Positions 31,311-55,756 of a stretch of 64,000 nt of DNA are shown here, piece after piece (position 1 is the first letter of the stretch; each line of letters begins with the position of its first letter). The DNA is from Bacteroidales bacterium (GTDB taxonomy: Bacteria; Bacteroidota; Bacteroidia; Bacteroidales; UBA6680). Location: NCBI GenBank assembly GCA_025210735.1, contig JAOARD010000062.1, positions 1 to 64,000 of the forward strand, read 5' to 3'. The notes beneath the pieces are model-generated. The model made no database searches. It saw only the letters and a program-made list of their open reading frames with translations, and had not been told where the DNA came from. Made by a program: the position numbers and the translations under genes.

Positions 31311-31397
31311 GTAAAGACGTTGCGTGTAGTGGAGACGTTGCATGCAACGTCTTTACTGTATAGTCTTTTGGCAACAGTTGCATGCAACGTCTTTACC
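31311..31397. repeat. dispersed palindromic element with two palindromes
   Basis: Two copies of the palindrome core GTTGCATGCAAC, each followed by GTCTTTAC, lie 40 nt apart (centres near 31342 and 31382), with a third degenerate half-copy at 31311. The spacer between them starts TGTATAGTCT. The same two-palindrome layout, with a similar spacer start, is found repeatedly inside the CRISPR array. Confidence 0.88.
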
Positions 31398-31403
31398 TTG
31401 TTT

Positions 31404-32129
31404 CTATCTTATATCTTCGGCATTACCTGATTTGCGATTTGATATAACCCTGTTTATATCATCAACTACAGTGGTTAGTTCTTCATACAATGCACCGTAT
31501 TGTGTTACATCTGCAATTGCCATAACCTCTACATATGCAAGCAACTCTTTGTTTACTTTATTACGTATCTCAGGCAAAAGTTTTGATGCCGATATCTCTT
31601 TTTTATGCTCAGTCTGCTTAATAATATTCTCACTAACCGAGTCCTTCCACTCCTCTGTTACAGTAACCATAGCATTAAAATATTTGGCTGTATGAGCCAA
31701 ATCGCCATTAATTATTGCTGCTATATCTGCCGACTGAAGATCCTTAATAAGTGAATCCATTGATACTGTCTGATCTTTGTATGACTGACTAATTATCTCT
31801 AAACCATAACGATCAAGAACACTAAATACAATATCGGCTGCTTTACGTTCAGCCTCATTATCAGAGAATGTAAGTCCTTTTATCACATAATAAAACGCGC
31901 GTAGAGTATTATCTCTTCTGAAATCCATTACATTAAGCTCAGATTTCAGAGTATCTCTGTTAATAGCTTCTGTTAAACTATCATACAGATAAACAACCTT
32001 ATCAGTAATGAGTACCATATAGGTATCTGACGACAGATTACTTCTCTTAATAACTTTAATGATGTTACCCAATACAAAGTTCAGGTCGTTTACATTAGCT
32101 TTTGAATAAATTCTTAAAACTTTTCTCAT
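31404..32129 (-). CDS. DUF6261-like protein
   Basis: 241-aa mostly helical cytoplasmic protein, no signal peptide or membrane segment. Blocks such as NTLRAFYYVIKGLTFS, AADIVFSVLDRYGLEI and the C-terminal LLAYVEVMAIADVTQYGALYEE (split here by convention) resemble Bacteroidetes DUF6261 proteins as I remember them. These are of unknown function and often sit in repeat-rich or accessory regions. No neighbour on the same strand. Upstream is nearly 1 kb of non-coding repeats. Confidence 0.75.
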   Translation of the reverse strand: MRKVLRIYSKANVNDLNFVLGNIIKVIKRSNLSSDTYMVLITDKVVYLYDSLTEAINRDTLKSELNVMDFRRDNTLRAFYYVIKGLTFSDNEAERKAADIVFSVLDRYGLEIISQSYKDQTVSMDSLIKDLQSADIAAIINGDLAHTAKYFNAMVTVTEEWKDSVSENIIKQTEHKKEISASKLLPEIRNKVNKELLAYVEVMAIADVTQYGALYEELTTVVDDINRVISNRKSGNAEDIR

Positions 32130-33106
32130 ATGGTGATTTATTAGTTTTCATTTAACCGGTATTACAGATAACCGGTATATTTCATGCTCTTTCGGCAGCT
32201 TTATGTAGCTGCAATTTTTATATGTATAAGAAAGTTAAGGACAAATTATTTAAAAGTCAATGGTTTGTCTATTTTTTATTTTCCGGATATAGCTTCGTAT
32301 TATAATCTCCTTATTTCGTAAATAACCATTCTCATGCTTAGTTTCATTTATTTTAAAACCCTATAGGTGTAAAAACTACACTCATAAATAATCTAATTAT
32401 CAGACAATATCTTACCATTTGCTACAACAATCTAATCAGATATCACAAACACTATATACAGTGAAACTAACATCATTTACTTTTAGTGTATATAGTTACA
32501 GGAAGCACAAAAAGCATTTACTGTAAGGATGAAAAAAGTTCCAGGAACGTAAAAAGCTATTACCTTTTATGCTTCCGGCGCGTTGGTTAGGGTTATAGTA
32601 ATAGCAAATTGATGTTTCGGAAAATCTCTCAGGCAAAAAGCTATTTCCACAACCAATATTTTTTTTGTCGACCAAAAAGTATTTACCGCAAGGGTGAGAA
32701 AAATTCATAAAGTGCAGAAAGCTATCACCTTTTATGCTTCCGGCGCATTGGTTAGGGCTACAGTAATAGCAAATTGATGTTTCGGAAAATCTCTCAGGCA
32801 AAAAGCTATTTCCACAACCAATATTTTTTTTTGTCTACCAAAAAGCTTTTACCGCAAGGGTGAGAAAAATTCAGAAAGTGTAAAAAGCATTTACCTTTTA
32901 TGCTTCCGGTGCGTTGGTTAGGGCTACAGTAATAGCAAATTGATGTTTCAGAAAATCTCTCAGGCAAAAAGCTATTTCTGTAACCTTAGTTTTTTTTATA
33001 GCCTCCAGAAAAAGTTGTTGCAGCAACAAAAAATTATCTGGCTTACAGTTATTATAAAATAACATTACAGTTATCTTTATATCTTATAACCAAAACACAC
33101 TATGTT
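32130..33106. other. 977-nt non-coding region upstream of the Cas13b locus
   Basis: Contains a small hairpin GCAGCT/AGCTGC (32195-32212), a triplicated 165-bp satellite (32507-32995), and the probable promoter region of the CRISPR-associated genes (for example TATCTTTA at 33072-33079, one mismatch to TAnnTTTG). No credible gene. Confidence 0.6.
32507..32995. repeat. tandem satellite, three copies of about 165 bp
   Basis: The landmark GCTTCCGG recurs at 32571, 32736 and 32902 (165 and 166 nt apart). Long stretches such as the GCAAATTGATGTTTC block are almost identical in each copy. Inside each unit a short motif like CAAAAAGCTATTTCC recurs about every 40 or 83 nt (near 32507, 32550, 32634, 32673, 32715, 32799, 32838, 32880, 32965), suggesting an older 41-nt subunit. 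Confidence 0.9.
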
Positions 33107-33699
33107 ATGAACCCTAATACCGATTATGTATACAACTCTATAAGAGAATCGTTAAAATTTGTTGAGACAAAACATGCTGGTCTGTTGGTTGTAAACAGCG
33201 GATTACTATTTGGTATATTCACAATATATAAAGAGGTGAATATGTTAAACAACTGGCTTATAATACTACCTGCAATACCATTTATTATCTCAATAGCTCT
33301 GTCGTTATATGCATTTTACCCAAGATTTAAACGCAAAAAGAGTAAGAAGCCAGACATAAACCTGTTTTTTGCAGAGGGTGTGGCACAACAGACACCTGAT
33401 AAACTAAAAGAGCTTATTAGTGCGACAATACAGTTGAGAATAATCTTATTACCTGGATACATACAACAGCAAAAATTACCGCTAAAAAATATCGTCTGTT
33501 TCGCAAAGCTGTTTTAGGAACAATTGCCGGTATTGTTGTATCTGTGTTATATACACTTTTGTGTGTTATATGCAACATTAGCTGATACATATTAAAACAG
33601 CATATACAGAGTTGTTCTCTGGTTATTATTGTAATATGCATTATAGCTATATACTTTAGTTTTAGCTACAACACATATAATTCAGCCCCGGAATTATAG
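33107..33699 (+). pseudogene. decayed transmembrane CRISPR-accessory gene (Csx27-like or DUF5706-like)
   Basis: An intact frame of 136 aa starts at 33107 but is not the whole gene. Residues 1-110 hold two membrane helices (HAGLLVVNSGLLFGIFTIYK and NWLIILPAIPFIISIALSL). After about 33436 the frame becomes unrelated, while the frame one base back continues as ENNLITWIHTTAKIT, AKKYRLFRKAV and a third helix to a TGA at 33583. That frame then stays open with a fourth hydrophobic helix to a TAG at 33697. So a 1-nt deletion near 33436 and perhaps a nonsense change disabled a protein of about 160-197 aa. Position fits type VI-B1 csx27, which encodes a multi-TM protein; the N-terminal style also resembles the DUF5706 Pycsar effector family. 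Confidence 0.7.
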
Positions 33700-33756
33700 A
33701 TATGTTGACACCAAACGGTGCTATTAATATACTGTTTAACAAAAAAACTGAACATT

Positions 33757-36700
33757 ATGTCAGAAAGATCATATATAAATGATAGAGATAAAAGAGAGAA
33801 GGAGCGTTTAATGGTTCCAATGGCTATATACTCTAATATTGCCACATCGTCTGTTGAGAAGATTGTTAATATCGATAAAAAAGCTGATAATGAGGATGCG
33901 TTATTAACATTTATAAAAAATCATAAAACATATAAAGATGAAGATAAACCAGAGTTTATATTTAAGCTACAGAACAATATATACCTGTTTGACTGGCTTA
34001 TAAAAAACGAAATACTTCTTAAACAGAGTGATAACGAAGAGATAATAAGAACCAACTTTACACACGCTGTTGAACTACTTGAACTTCTGAACTATATTAG
34101 AAACATTCATGCACATACAGAACATACAACCATAAAAATTGAGTATTTTCTCAACAACAAACCGCATATAAAAGATGCTATTACAACACTGTACAATATA
34201 GCCACATACAATGCTGGAGTTGCACTACCTGCAATATATAGCGGACAACGGGCTATATTTGAGTTTACCAGAAGTAACAACGGAGCAGAGTTTATTACCG
34301 ACAGAGATGGTAACAAGATAAATGGTTCTTTTGACAATAAATTTACTCTTACAGGATATATATTCTATATATCGCTGTTTCTGTTAAAGCATGAGGTCAG
34401 CGATTTCTTAAATGCACTTGAGCAGAGTGTATACACTTTTAATAAGATAAAAGAGAGACAACAATTCCGCGATACAAACCCTAAGAAACAGTATCCTGAA
34501 GAGCTGGTAAATAAACGTAAACACTTTTTATATGCGCGCAATGTGTATACACAGTTTGCAATAAGAGGACATATAGATACGCTTTTTAACAGCAGTGAGT
34601 ACATCACTCGTGAGCGTGCTCTATCTGTTATGGAGTATCTTAAACGTTGCCCGGCAGAGCGTTTGGTTACACCATTTGCCAATAGTGCCAATAAAGACTG
34701 GGAGATAGAGAACAGAGAGAGCAGTGATATATATCTTGACCCACATAAAGAGGTTAGATTAACAGGCTATAACCAACAATATCCGCTGAGAGAGAAGAAT
34801 AAGTTTTTTGAATACGCTGTACAGTATCTGTATGAGGAGATGCAAACCCTTGGTATGTACAACAAAGATGAAAACAAATGGTTATGGGCACTACATGCTC
34901 CGGCAGCAATGCTGAATGAGCAGAAGAGAGAGTATAACAACAAAAGGATTCCTAAACATAAAAAGTATATATGGGATATACCTGACAACGAAAACTATAT
35001 AATAAATGATCGTGGTGAGAATAATGGATTCCCGTTCTTCTTTGAACGTGGCAAAGATGGCAGTTATAACCATGCTCTGTTCAGGTTAGAGAGAGGTTCT
35101 GGCGATAAGAGTAAGGTTGTTATAGGTAAACTCAGTGCCGATACACTATGCACTATTCTTGAAAACTATCTGTACAGATTCCCTGTAAAAAAAAATACAC
35201 AAGTAAAGTGGAAAGAGAGAAAGAAATTCTTTAATATACTGTTTAAAAATATATTTAACCAGATAGAGGGTAAGTGTAATACAGGACGAGGCAACGGAGA
35301 GAGAGTTACTATCACTAAGAAACAGATAAAGAACAAGATTGAGATACTGCGCAACAGAGAGGCTGAGAAGATAAAAGAGATAGAGGATGTTGATGAGAGA
35401 AACAGCAGGATCAGATTTGGTGGGCATAATCACCATGTTAAGGCTACCTATATAGCAAAAACATGGAATAAGATGATTATGTACGGACAGGAGAACAATC
35501 CGGCTCATGCCGAGGATTACAATGGTATTACTGGCGGAAAGAGTGGTTATATGGAGATAGTACGCCTGCTTACCGAACTGGGCAGCAGAAGAGATACCGC
35601 TGTAACACAACCTGTGTTAGATGAGCTTTTCAGAAATCTTAAAGGCCTAGGAAATAAACAGAGAATAGGAAACAACTACTACGCATTAATAAACAAGCAG
35701 ATAAGAGTGTCTGGTATTATGGGTAACTCCGGATCTCCTGAACCCATAAAGAAGAAAAAAACACTTAACGATCTGTACAAACAGGCTAAAGAGTATAACC
35801 AGGCTATTTTAAACAGAATGGAGCAGAGGCTTGATGGTGAATTTAATGCCGACGAGTGGCATCCTAACGCTGAGATGCGCTGGCTAAAGCTGCGCGACAA
35901 CAGAACACCACAAGCAGCAAACTATATGGAGAGACCTCCTAAGGATAGAGATACCGGTATATATAATGTTGATAAACACTTCTACTCTGTTGTGGGTGTA
36001 AAGTATATAGATCAGATAGAAGTTGGACGGGATAGTAACTGTTTATCAAAAACCCGTTTATGTTCGCTGCATAACAGAATATATCCGGGTGCAAATAATA
36101 ATACACTTCTGTATAAGCAGTTTTACAATACCAATGTTTGGGACAATATAAGCAGATCGGACAGACAGAGGTTGTTTAATATTAAAAGACAGGATACAAT
36201 ACTGTCGCATATTGCATACTATTATACAATAAAGATAGAGGATGAGTATCAGAACAGAACATTATCGTCGTTAGAGTTTGATAAAGACAATATCACAATC
36301 CCTGTTAACCGGATATTTATAAATACATACTACAGGTATCTTAAGCAGAACAGGTATCGTATGATTCCGCAACAGATAAAGAGTATTGCCGATATTGTTA
36401 CAGATAACAACCTTATAGAGAGTAACACAATTAGCTTTGCACCTATTGTAAAAAAGAGAAAGGCTGACCTTACAAATGATGAGCGTTTCTCGTTCCTTTC
36501 GGTTGAAGAAAAAAAGATGAGATGGTACGAGGCAAATCAGTTAGCAGATAAAAAGCTTAAAGATATTAAGGAGGATACTGTTTTTATAAGGATAACTGAA
36601 AACCCCGACAGGTTCTATCTGGCAGATATTATTACAGGCTATAACATATGCCGAATGGCATTTGTAGACAGACTATTGAGGATAGAGAGAGATACTGTAA

Positions 36701-37008
36701 AACAATTTAATCTTACATCAGACAAAGGGTATATTGATTTTAAAGATGTAATGTTGGCACTGCAGAGTAACTACAACCTTAGCCAGTATCAGGCAGAGAC
36801 ATTAAGAAACTTACGCAACTGTGCTATGCACAATGAGGTACCAACAGGTAATCTGTTACCGGACAGCAATAACCTTATAAAGAGGGTTAAGGATAACAAC
36901 AGAGAGGAGACCGGAGATGAGTATATAGACTTTTTTGGCAGAGGTACAGAGATTATAAATGAGATATATAGTAAGACAGAGAGTAGAACAGAGAAAGCAA
37001 AACTATAA
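33757..37008 (+). CDS. cas13b: Cas13b, type VI-B CRISPR RNA-guided ribonuclease
   Basis: 1083 aa from ATG 33757 (MSERSYIN); the frame is open to a GTG at 33718, but no conserved sequence lies there. Two HEPN RNase motifs of the form RxxxxH are present: R115-H120 (RNIHAH) and R1020-H1025 (RNCAMH). They lie near opposite ends of the protein, the diagnostic layout of Cas13b rather than Cas13a or Cas13d. The interior is Lys/Arg/Asn/Tyr-rich with no RuvC, HNH, Walker or helicase motif. Cas13b processes its own crRNA and cleaves target RNA, then nearby RNA. The CRISPR array follows 126 nt downstream on the same strand; no cas1 or cas2 is present. Length is in the usual 950-1200 aa range. Confidence 0.96.
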   Translation: MSERSYINDRDKREKERLMVPMAIYSNIATSSVEKIVNIDKKADNEDALLTFIKNHKTYKDEDKPEFIFKLQNNIYLFDWLIKNEILLKQSDNEEIIRTNFTHAVELLELLNYIRNIHAHTEHTTIKIEYFLNNKPHIKDAITTLYNIATYNAGVALPAIYSGQRAIFEFTRSNNGAEFITDRDGNKINGSFDNKFTLTGYIFYISLFLLKHEVSDFLNALEQSVYTFNKIKERQQFRDTNPKKQYPEELVNKRKHFLYARNVYTQFAIRGHIDTLFNSSEYITRERALSVMEYLKRCPAERLVTPFANSANKDWEIENRESSDIYLDPHKEVRLTGYNQQYPLREKNKFFEYAVQYLYEEMQTLGMYNKDENKWLWALHAPAAMLNEQKREYNNKRIPKHKKYIWDIPDNENYIINDRGENNGFPFFFERGKDGSYNHALFRLERGSGDKSKVVIGKLSADTLCTILENYLYRFPVKKNTQVKWKERKKFFNILFKNIFNQIEGKCNTGRGNGERVTITKKQIKNKIEILRNREAEKIKEIEDVDERNSRIRFGGHNHHVKATYIAKTWNKMIMYGQENNPAHAEDYNGITGGKSGYMEIVRLLTELGSRRDTAVTQPVLDELFRNLKGLGNKQRIGNNYYALINKQIRVSGIMGNSGSPEPIKKKKTLNDLYKQAKEYNQAILNRMEQRLDGEFNADEWHPNAEMRWLKLRDNRTPQAANYMERPPKDRDTGIYNVDKHFYSVVGVKYIDQIEVGRDSNCLSKTRLCSLHNRIYPGANNNTLLYKQFYNTNVWDNISRSDRQRLFNIKRQDTILSHIAYYYTIKIEDEYQNRTLSSLEFDKDNITIPVNRIFINTYYRYLKQNRYRMIPQQIKSIADIVTDNNLIESNTISFAPIVKKRKADLTNDERFSFLSVEEKKMRWYEANQLADKKLKDIKEDTVFIRITENPDRFYLADIITGYNICRMAFVDRLLRIERDTVKQFNLTSDKGYIDFKDVMLALQSNYNLSQYQAETLRNLRNCAMHNEVPTGNLLPDSNNLIKRVKDNNREETGDEYIDFFGRGTEIINEIYSKTESRTEKAKL

Positions 37009-37134
37009 TAAATACAGTAATATCAGGATATAAAAACTTACGCACTATCTGCTCTTTGACATGCTGAAACAATACGTTTAACAAGACTATTTAATAGTTT
37101 AAAATATTATATTTAAACCAATTACAGAACACTA
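37009..37134 (+). promoter_or_regulatory. probable CRISPR leader
   Basis: 126 AT-rich nucleotides between cas13b and the first repeat, with a conspicuous GCTCTTTGACATGCTG segment at 37051-37066 that could supply a -33 TTTG. A matching -7 box is not clear. The repeat orientation implies transcription toward the array on the plus strand. Confidence 0.5.
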
Positions 37135-37500
37135 GCTGTAACTACCTACTGTTTAAGAGGTACATACAGTAATTCATTATTAGATTCGCTACCTTTCAAT
37201 GCTGTAACTACCTACTGTTTTAGAGGTACATACAGTTTTTAAAATCTGTGTTCGTTTTATTGCATTGCTGTAACTACCTGCTGTTTAAGAGGTACATACA
37301 GTCACAAGCCCACCAACCCATTTCACCACGTTGCTGTAACTACCTGCTGTTTAAGAGGTACATACAGTAGATTTCGCATACACACGACCTTTTACAACGC
37401 TGTAACTACCTGCTGTTTTAGAGGTACATACAGTTTTGAAATGACTTTTTTCTCCTCTAATTCCGCTGTAACTACCTGCTGTTTAAGAGGTATATTCAGT

Positions 37501-37570
37501 TGTTGGAGACGTTGCACGCAACGTCTTTACATGGTTGTGGAGAGATATACAACAGATCGACTTCGATAAG
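37501..37570 (+). repeat. array-embedded palindromic element, 70-nt copy
   Basis: Starts TGTTGGAGACGTTGC, contains the hairpin GACGTTGC/GCAACGTC and the ATATACAACAGATCGACTTC tail, truncated by 13 nt relative to the 83-nt form. Follows a repeat with an altered end (TATATTCAGT). Confidence 0.9.
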
Positions 37571-37672
37571 AGATAGCTTGCCTGCTGTTTAAGAGGCACA
37601 TACAGTGTGACAATACTAAGCTTCATTTGGTTAACAGCTGTAACTACCTGCTGTTTTAGAGGTATATACAGT

Positions 37673-37805
37673 AAGTGGCGACGTTGTATGCAAAGACTTA
37701 CCGTATAGTTTGAGAGGTAGCTGTTGGAGACGTTGCACTGCAACGTCTTTACATGGTTGTGGAGAGATATACAACAGATCGACTTCGACAGAAGAAAGTT
37801 CGTTT
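37673..37805 (+). repeat. array-embedded palindromic element, 133-nt copy
   Basis: Full two-palindrome form: a degenerate first palindrome (starts AAGTGGCGACGTTG), the 50-nt offset second palindrome GACGTTGCACTGCAACGTC, and the AGATCGACTTCGACAGAAG tail running to the variant repeat at 37806. Confidence 0.9.
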
Positions 37806-38171
37806 GCTGTATCCAGTCTCTGTTTAAGAGGTACATACAGTAGCGTCAATTAGTTGTGTGAGGAGGTTCTTGCTGTAACTACCTGCTGTTTTAGAGGTAC
37901 ATACAGTTCCTGAAGTGAAAGAGTCTGACCAGTAAGAACTGTAACCACCTGCTGTTTAAGAGGTACATACAGTACTTTTTCTAAGGGGTAGGAATCCATG
38001 TATGCTGTAACTACCTGCTGTTTAAGAGGTACATACAGTGCAATCTGCTGATTAATGTGTAATCCTTGTGCTGTAACTACCTACTGTTTTAGAGGTATAT
38101 ACAGTTAAAGAAGTAGTCAAATAAATTGTTGAACAGCTGTAACTACCTGCTGTTTTAGAGGCACATACAGT

Positions 38172-38304
38172 AAGTGGCGACGGTGCATGCAATGGCGTTA
38201 CCGTATAGTTTGAGAGGTAGCTGTTGGAGACGTTGCACGCAACGTCTTTACTTTGTTGTTGAGAGATATACAACAGATCGACTTCGACAGAAAAAAGCTT
38301 GTTT
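38172..38304 (+). repeat. array-embedded palindromic element, 133-nt copy
   Basis: Decomposes as 30 nt (AAGTGGCGACGG...), 20 nt (CGTATAGTTTGAGAGGTAGC), 30 nt with the palindrome, 23 nt ending ATATACAAC, and a 30-nt tail starting AGATCGACTT. Confidence 0.9.
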
Positions 38305-38405
38305 GCTGTATCCAACCGCTGTTTAGAGGTACAGACAGTCCGCTTACAGTGCTTAGCTTTTGTATTACCGCTGTAACTACCTGCTGTTTTAGAGGCATAT
38401 ACAGT

Positions 38406-38488
38406 TGTTGGAGACGTTGCGTGCAACGTCTTTACTTTGCTGTTGAGAGATATACAACAGATCGACTTAGATAGGAGGCAACTCGCCT
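38406..38488 (+). repeat. array-embedded palindromic element, 83-nt copy lacking the first 50 nt
   Basis: Begins directly at TGTTGGAGACG, so the first palindrome unit is absent. Its tail diverges from the others (TTAGATAGGAGGCAACTCGC). Confidence 0.88.
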
Positions 38489-38656
38489 GCTGTATCCAAC
38501 TGCTGTTTTAGAGGTACATACAGTACCAACTTTAAGTCACTCGCTAACTTTAAGGCTGTAACTACCTGCTGTTTAAGAGGTACATACAGTTTTCTCATTA
38601 TCCAATATTCTCCATGTTCGGCTGTAACTACCTGCTGTTTTAGGGGTATATACAGT

Positions 38657-38789
38657 AAGTGGCGACGGTGCATGCAATGGCATTACCGTATAGTTTGAGA
38701 GGTAGCTGTTTGAGACGTTGCACGCAACGTCTTTACATGGTTGTTGAGAGTTATGCAACAGATCGACTTAGACAGAAGAAAGCTTGTTT
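38657..38789 (+). repeat. array-embedded palindromic element, 133-nt copy
   Basis: Nearly identical to the 38172 copy, including CGTATAGTTTGAGAGGTAGC, with the second palindrome GACGTTGCACGCAACGTC intact. Confidence 0.9.
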
Positions 38790-38891
38790 GCTGTATCCAA
38801 CCGCTGTTTTAGAGGTACATACAGTTTTATTTCAAGTGATTTGATTCGCTCTGCAGCTGTAACTACCTGCTGTTTTAGAGGTACATACAGT

Positions 38892-38974
38892 AAGTGGCGA
38901 CGGTGCGTGCAACGTCTTTACATGCTTGTTGAGAGATATACAACAGATCGACTTCGACAGAATAAAGCTTGTTT
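38892..38974 (+). repeat. array-embedded palindromic element, 83-nt hybrid copy
   Basis: Starts as the first palindrome unit (AAGTGGCGACGGTGC) but continues as the second (GTGCAACGTCTTTAC), as expected if recombination between the two palindromes removed exactly one 50-nt unit. Confidence 0.88.
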
Positions 38975-39076
38975 GCTGTATCCAGTCTCTGTTTAAGAGG
39001 TACATACAGTCGGAAATTAAACAGGTTATACGTTCTTTTTGCTGTAACTACCTGCTGTTTTAGAGGTATATACAGT

Positions 39077-39209
39077 AAGTGGCGACGGTGCATGCAATGG
39101 CTTTACTGTATCGTCTGAGAGATAGCTGTTGGAGACGTTGCGTGCAACGTCTTTACATGCTTGTTGAGAGTTATGCAACAGATCGACTTCGACAGAAAAA
39201 AGCTTGTTT
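39077..39209 (+). repeat. array-embedded palindromic element, 133-nt copy
   Basis: Full form with TTTACTGTATCGTCTGAGA between the palindromes, closer to the trailing remnant at 39246 than to the 38172 and 38657 copies. Confidence 0.9.
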
Positions 39210-39245
39210 GCTGTATCCAACCGCTGTTTTAGAGGTATATACAGT

Positions 39246-39325
39246 AAGTGGCGACGGTGCATGCAATGGCTTTACTGTATCGTCTGAGAAAGATGTTGGA
39301 GACGTTGCGTGCAACGTCTGTACAT
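39246..39325 (+). repeat. trailing element remnant after the last repeat
   Basis: Directly after the final repeat the same element begins again (AAGTGGCGACGGTGCATGC) and runs through the second palindrome GACGTTGCGTGCAACGTC before homology ends. The array therefore terminates inside an element copy. Confidence 0.85.
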
Positions 39326-54850: not shown

Positions 54851-55645
54851 TTATACTGAAATATCACCCTTAATATGCGGGTGGCTTTTATAGTTTACTA
54901 TCTCAAAATCATTATACTCAAAATCAAACACTGATTTAACATCCTTATTCAGTTTAAGCTGAGGCAAAGACATTGGATCCCTCGATATCTGTAACTTTGC
55001 CTGCTCAATATGGTTAGTATATATATGAGCATCGCCAAGTGTATGAACAAACTCACCAGGCTCTAATCCGGTTACCTGAGCCATCATATGTAACAATAAA
55101 GCATATGAGGCTATATTAAATGGTACACCTAAGAATATATCGGCACTACGCTGATATAACTGACAAGACAATTTACCATTAGCTACATAAAACTGAAACA
55201 TTATGTGACACGGAGGCAGAGCCATATTGTCAATCTCAGCAACATTCCATGCACTTACAATATGTCTTCTTGAATCCGGATTATTTTTTATTGAATCTAT
55301 TACCTCTGATATCTGATCGTACGTTTTTTTATCAGCTCCTTGCCATGATCGCCACTGGCTACCATAAACAGGCCCAAGGTTACCTTCCTCATCGGCCCAC
55401 TCATTCCATATTCTCACATTATTATCCTGCAAGTACTTAATATTTGTGTCGCCTTTAAGAAACCACAACAATTCATGTATTATAGATTTTGTGTGCAATT
55501 TTTTTGTTGTTACCAACGGAAATCCATCAGCCATATTAAACCGCATCTGATATCCAAAAACACTTATTGTTCCGGTTCCGGTTCTATCCTCTTTCTTTAT
55601 ACCATTTTCAAGTACATGCTCAATAAGATCTAAGTACTGTCTCAT
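54851..55645 (-). CDS. thyA: thymidylate synthase
   Basis: 264 aa, matching E. coli length. Catalytic Cys at C146 in [10 protein letters not shown], phosphate Arg R21 in EDRTGTGT and R126-R127 in DSRRHI. It methylates dUMP to dTMP using methylene-THF. Order thyA-folA is the classic pair recycling folate, with only 3 nt between the stop and the possible start of folA. Confidence 0.97.
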
Positions 55646-55756
55646 ATGTCAAAATTTGTCTTTTAAAGGTCATATGGAACTTGCATTTTAGTAATTCCCT
55701 TGTACGAGAAATTCCTTTGTTCATGCTCGTTTCATTTAATATATGTGGTTTATATA

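Follow-up and report, generated by a model that had tools for sequence, protein, structure and literature searches.

The window analysed here, a 64,000-nt stretch of DNA from a Bacteroidales bacterium of the genus UBA6680, contains a CRISPR array in which seven of the 17 repeat sites are composite, each consisting of a long interval and both of its bounding repeats. On balance, we favour the explanation that this is the real array of a divergent type VI-B-like system, in which a fossil array end and a REP cluster became a composite repeat that then spread by recombination between repeats. We know of no agreed explanation for the long repeats of type VI-B arrays; this locus and its counterpart in a sister species suggest how such repeats could arise, from an array fossil and a REP palindrome, and how they could multiply while leaving the spacers undisturbed.

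The array occupies positions 37135 to 39245 on the + strand and holds 24 copies of a 36-nt repeat (DR; array consensus GCTGTAACTACCTGCTGTTTTAGAGGTACATACAGT) and 23 intervals. Sixteen of these intervals are exactly 30 nt long, each with a unique sequence, and the remaining seven measure 70, 133, 133, 83, 133, 83 and 133 nt. Our count therefore agrees with a sequence-only reading of positions 37501-39325, correctly placed, which had reported that seven of 23 intervals were 70, 83 or 133 nt instead of 30. Counted by repeat site, ten simple and seven composite sites are separated by sixteen 30-nt spacers, all bordered on both sides by intact repeat ends. Each composite is 142-205 nt long and is ordered as DR, insert (70, 83 or 133 nt) and second DR copy. 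The features of the locus are as follows.

31316-31402, + strand: REP cluster of the same family as in the array, outside the array and between two convergent genes
33107-33517, + strand: PycTM-like two-transmembrane protein, 136 aa, candidate accessory (PADLOC 2TM/PycTM, E 5e-12; Pfam PF18967, 8.5e-5, below cut-off)
33718-37008, + strand: divergent Cas13b-like effector, 1096 aa, with RX4H HEPN motifs near both ends (RNIHAH, RNCAMH)
37009-37134, + strand: AT-rich presumed leader that separates the effector from the first repeat and, in the sister, is conserved within a block of 94% identity (32824-37302)
37135-37464, + strand: five simple 36-nt repeats and five 30-nt spacers
37465-37606, + strand: composite A1 (36 + 70 + 36), second repeat copy without its 5' end
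37637-37841, + strand: composite A2 (36 + 133 + 36)
37872-38135, + strand: four simple repeats and four 30-nt spacers
38136-38339, + strand: composite A3 (36 + 133 + 35)
38370-38524, + strand: composite A4 (36 + 83 + 36), first REP absent
38555-38590, + strand: simple repeat at the A4/A5 junction
38621-38825, + strand: composite A5 (36 + 133 + 36)
38856-39010, + strand: composite A6 (36 + 83 + 36), with a 50-nt deletion that fuses the first and second REP
39041-39245, + strand: composite A7 (36 + 133 + 36), the last repeat site of the array
Parts of A7, + strand: REP1 39077-39106; REP2 39127-39156; decayed DR about 39152-39181; relic-spacer-sized stretch of 28 nt 39182-39209; second DR copy 39210-39245
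39246-39325, + strand: array trailer, a REP cluster in the form of a truncated composite directly 3' of the last repeat

The effector side is presumed to be the leader side, as the distal repeats are the degenerate ones in a distant homologue. Each long interval directly follows a repeat with 0-3 mismatches to the consensus, as expected from the earlier statement that the long intervals begin exactly at a repeat end. The companion statement, that the first 13 nt of each closing repeat are altered, was too strong: the 5' region is indeed altered, but by 3-6 differences that all fall within nt 7-14. Exceptions to this pattern are the copy at 37571, which has lost its 5' 12-13 nt, and the second copies in the sister, which differ at three positions or none. 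A search of the array's spacers against phages found no targets.

The palindrome GACGTTGCRYGCAACGTC, said to be present in all seven inserts, is exact in six of them; in the seventh (38892-38974) the first arm reads GACGGTGC, a fusion of both palindromes. Outside the array, this genome carries eight further copies, in intergenic clusters with GTGGC/GCCAC flanks, and two congeners carry 12 and 7, with a reversed control giving 0. The palindrome is thus a short sequence dispersed beyond chance, a genus-wide REP-like motif. With 15 copies in the genome, seven of them in or at the array, against none for the reversed control, and with the same layout recurring in an independently assembled sister genome, the regularity of the array is beyond chance, as had been claimed. 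Longer matches to the insert tail were found in the array only, whereas the palindrome itself is genus-wide. Because all inserts contain this array-only tail and a second repeat copy, they appear to represent one unit that was copied within the array. The proposal that palindromic elements had invaded the array at fixed positions therefore holds as far as the dispersed genomic nature of the palindrome and the regularity of the composites are concerned, but not as independent invasion. Three of the REP hairpins inside composites (38225-38250, 38409-38434 and 39130-39155) score as terminator-like, compared with 1.2 expected, and such hairpins could reduce transcription of the distal spacers. The genus has another dispersed repeat, an intergenic sequence of ~100 nt at 55642-55739, two copies of which (79-81%, in both orientations) lie on the sister's array contig.

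The same locus is present in a sister metagenome-assembled genome of the genus UBA6680 (L005, L007), in which the effector is 95% identical. The sister array has nine repeat sites, two of them composites (inserts, 134 and 142 nt), and after the last repeat it carries its own version of the element. The two arrays have no spacer in common (best pair, 17/30). Since every spacer differs and yet both lineages have composites, the composites would have outlasted a complete turnover of spacers; so, judging from this one sister locus, they appear to be a lasting array feature that spreads inside the array rather than random insertions. Related strains lacking the element had been named as grounds for rejecting the earlier reading, and in the one sister looked at the element is present.

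The partial copy of the element reported after the last repeat is also there, at 39246-39325. This trailer is 93% identical to the start of the A7 insert, with identity dropping to 78% for A2, and the sister's first insert and trailer likewise share about the first 77 nt, so that the insert of each species resembles its own array end. Between the species, the REP2 arms are conserved and the tail is about 75% identical. Homology between the two loci extends from 31422 to 37302 with one gap and is then confined to the repeats, and the downstream flanks differ. The sister's downstream flank was found in the present genome on another contig, C60, where it begins at an orphan stretch of REP and DR sequence, with identities of 74% over 167 nt followed by 88% over 842 nt. 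Its position beside this orphan stretch suggests that the old trailer of the array lies on C60 and that the array in the window was joined to another flank through a REP cluster. The array end would thus coincide either with a REP-mediated rearrangement or with a misassembly in one of the drafts.

Compared with the DR, single copies of the insert tail gave p values of 0.004-0.13, most of them below 0.05, and the reading of the tail as a decayed DR followed by a 28-nt spacer-sized stretch is moderately supported, although the match scores are modest. Two further findings lend support to a decayed DR. First, three decayed copies of the DR are present in the sister's trailer, and the final one is fused to a REP. 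Second, the orphan REP-REP stretch on C60 (C60:44300-44420; L056 2800-2918) ends in TTGTTGTTGAGAGGTACATACAGT and appears to show a less decayed form of the composite tail; nowhere else in the 5.6 Mb, the array excepted, is there an exact DR 3' end (15 nt). A conserved self-targeting guide in the tail was considered and rejected: genome matches were only weak, and the 28-nt stretch differs at 10/28 positions between A7 and the sister composite B1 (counted by eye). A search of Rfam matched no family.

We therefore propose, as the explanation favoured above, that an intergenic REP cluster became joined to the distal end of an old array, which would have produced a fossil mini-array of the form DR-REP-dr-relic spacer-DR'. 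Homologous recombination or gene conversion among the repeats would then have carried copies of this composite unit to further repeat sites, a process that would leave the 30-nt spacer lattice undisturbed. As each spacer directly precedes an intact DR, ordinary spacer-DR crRNAs could presumably still be cut at all sites; the composite would be tolerated and may occasionally yield a long-repeat crRNA like that of type VI-B systems. The spread of the unit is partly borne out by the sequences. In a four-gamete test of the seven composites, from which columns with misaligned palindromes were left out, 56/153 informative site pairs failed, corresponding to at least 8 disjoint exchange intervals in a count that ignores repeated mutation. 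The variable sites thus do not fit one tree, which argues against simple descent by duplication. Moreover, the first DR of the composites carries T at nt 29 in 5/7 cases compared with 1/10 simple repeats (p 0.03), suggesting that the insert takes DR sequence along when it is copied. Exchange between repeats, by homologous recombination or gene conversion, would account for the spread most simply. Against this scheme, neither a donor nor an intermediate of the copying came to light.

A different explanation is that the composites function as long direct repeats and that the effector reads DR-insert-DR' as one long hairpin and makes long crRNAs, as reported for Bergeyella zoohelcum. Type VI-B arrays are reported to give rise to two crRNAs, a short one of 66 nt and a long one of 118 nt that comes from an 88-nt composite repeat (Smargon et al. 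2017, summarised in PMC8209922), and long repeats in which 5' and 3' fragments of the 36-nt repeat surround an intervening sequence are on record (PMC8209922); the earlier verdict that the layout was unlike any known array was therefore too strong. The present array resembles these systems in its 36-nt repeats, its 30-nt spacers and a subset of repeats that are longer, and the seven composites here and two in the sister are all lengthened by intervening sequence with DR sequence at both ends. It differs from them in that its composites are 142-205 nt long, number seven in the array, start with a complete DR and carry a genus-wide REP palindrome, and in that its effector is a distant relative of Cas13b. 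Even so, the composites are an enlarged, REP-bearing form of the known type VI-B long repeats and not a new category.

Their persistence in two species, with REP2 arms that are conserved beside a tail only about 75% identical, is in keeping with a function, as is the prediction that all nine composites pair their DR arms across the insert, fully or partly. However, the nested fold was rejected as proof of function because shuffled inserts and plain consensus tandem DRs are predicted to fold alike, and the changes in the second repeat copies showed no significant selection for preservation of the hairpin. An intact first DR right after each spacer makes a short crRNA available everywhere. In addition, no composites are present in a 36%-identical homologue locus with about 32 repeats, or, as judged by repeat spacing, in three canonical Cas13b arrays (one of them at a contig end and just five repeats long), which indicates that such systems do not need composites. 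We consider it rather unlikely that the composites are maintained as functional long repeats. A related idea concerns the hairpin between leader and repeat that blocks extraneous crRNA from the first repeat in type VI systems (PMC13187072). The situation here is similar in that the second copy sits downstream of non-spacer sequence and could give unwanted crRNA; it is dissimilar in that an ecrRNA-type block of this copy by the insert tail was not consistently predicted, nor did prediction support a block of the first repeat by the leader. Whatever the composites do, ten simple and seven long repeats occur together in this natural array, which offers a site-by-site comparison of processing.

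The composites might instead have multiplied during spacer acquisition, the integrase copying a whole composite as one long repeat with each spacer gained. Their occurrence in adjacent pairs or triples and the exact 30-nt lattice would agree with this, and adjacent composites show a slightly greater similarity to each other in the middle segment (p 0.03, post hoc), which could mean duplication of this kind and to that extent counts against exchange between repeats. However, simple repeats lie leader-side of the composites and between them, so that copying at the leader end would need further events, and alleles are scrambled among the composite copies. The sister has a Cas1, but none was found in the present genome, which is 97.7% complete, and on that basis the array may have ceased to acquire spacers on its own. 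Multiplication through acquisition thus seems improbable. A bolder suggestion is that the composites serve as recombination platforms, 142-205 bp of homology and the genome-wide REPs allowing strains to swap spacer blocks and the locus to join new flanks. If this were true, a type VI array without adaptation genes of its own would renew its memory by recombination. The turnover of spacers around persisting composites and the change of flank at the REP end of the array fit this suggestion, but nothing in the present results requires it, and we regard it as a long shot.

It is very improbable that a REP element mobilized by a RAYT-type transposase was inserted independently next to the repeats. 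The palindrome is of the dispersed, GC-rich and often clustered kind (GTGGCGACGTTGCRYGCAACGTCGCCAC type) that characterizes REP/BIME/REPIN elements, and Y1_Tnp-family genes exist in these genomes. Unlike such elements, the array copies are locked into a composite with DR sequence and are copied along with the DR, together with the long array-only sequence held in common by the inserts. The search for a linked RAYT that the sequence-only reading had suggested did find RAYT-like genes, but none of the nine Y1_Tnp loci examined (2-3.3 kb each) has a REP of this family alongside. There is also no target-site pattern except the DR itself, whereas independent insertions would be expected at differing offsets within the repeats. 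An assembly artefact, for which the draft state of the genomes and the departure of the downstream flank from the sister exactly at the array end (a possible misjoin) could be cited, can be set aside almost completely, as the seven composites are distinct in sequence with unique spacers on both sides and the separately assembled sister has the same architecture, internally too.

The effector, which ends 126 nt upstream of the array, is best called divergent Cas13b-like, probably a distant Cas13b relative. The locus is type VI-B-like in having a large effector with two RX4H HEPN motifs near its ends, 36-nt repeats and 30-nt spacers, and in lacking cas1/cas2. The curated Cas13b family NF038190 does not recognize it, matching over the C-terminal HEPN only (E 2.3e-5, 23.9 bits against a cut-off of 150). 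An hhalign comparison with PspCas13b gave E 1.4e-4 over the HEPN-2 region; the probe sequence is taken to be PspCas13b, and its own NF038190 score of 732 bits shows that it is a Cas13b. No sequence match was found in the PDB and no Cas13b match in PADLOC, and the AlphaFold model (pLDDT 35) was unusable. One homologue from another family of the order shares 34-36% identity with the effector and conserves the second HEPN motif. Among the several hundred Bacteroidia genomes searched, clear occurrences of the effector were limited to 3, and no related loci were found in viral contigs. The effector may form a branch of type VI-B that has yet to be described.

The gene directly upstream of the effector encodes a PycTM-like protein in 3/3 loci (33107-33517; L031 17784-18263; L028 9411-9977), and is full-length in the same place at the sister (159 aa) and distant homologue loci. 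The copy in the window may be broken, as a 1-nt gap relative to the sister DNA shifts its frame after about residue 100. It is possible that this Pycsar-effector-type protein is a membrane partner in place of Csx27/Csx28; a full-text literature search for Cas13 together with PycTM found no paper. The locus would also mark a distant branch of Cas13b-like systems in which the candidate membrane partner is a different one. A repeated intergenic sequence (32508-33024) that lies just 5' of the effector operon is about 87% identical to one that immediately precedes the orphan array end on C60 (L056 2460-2803).
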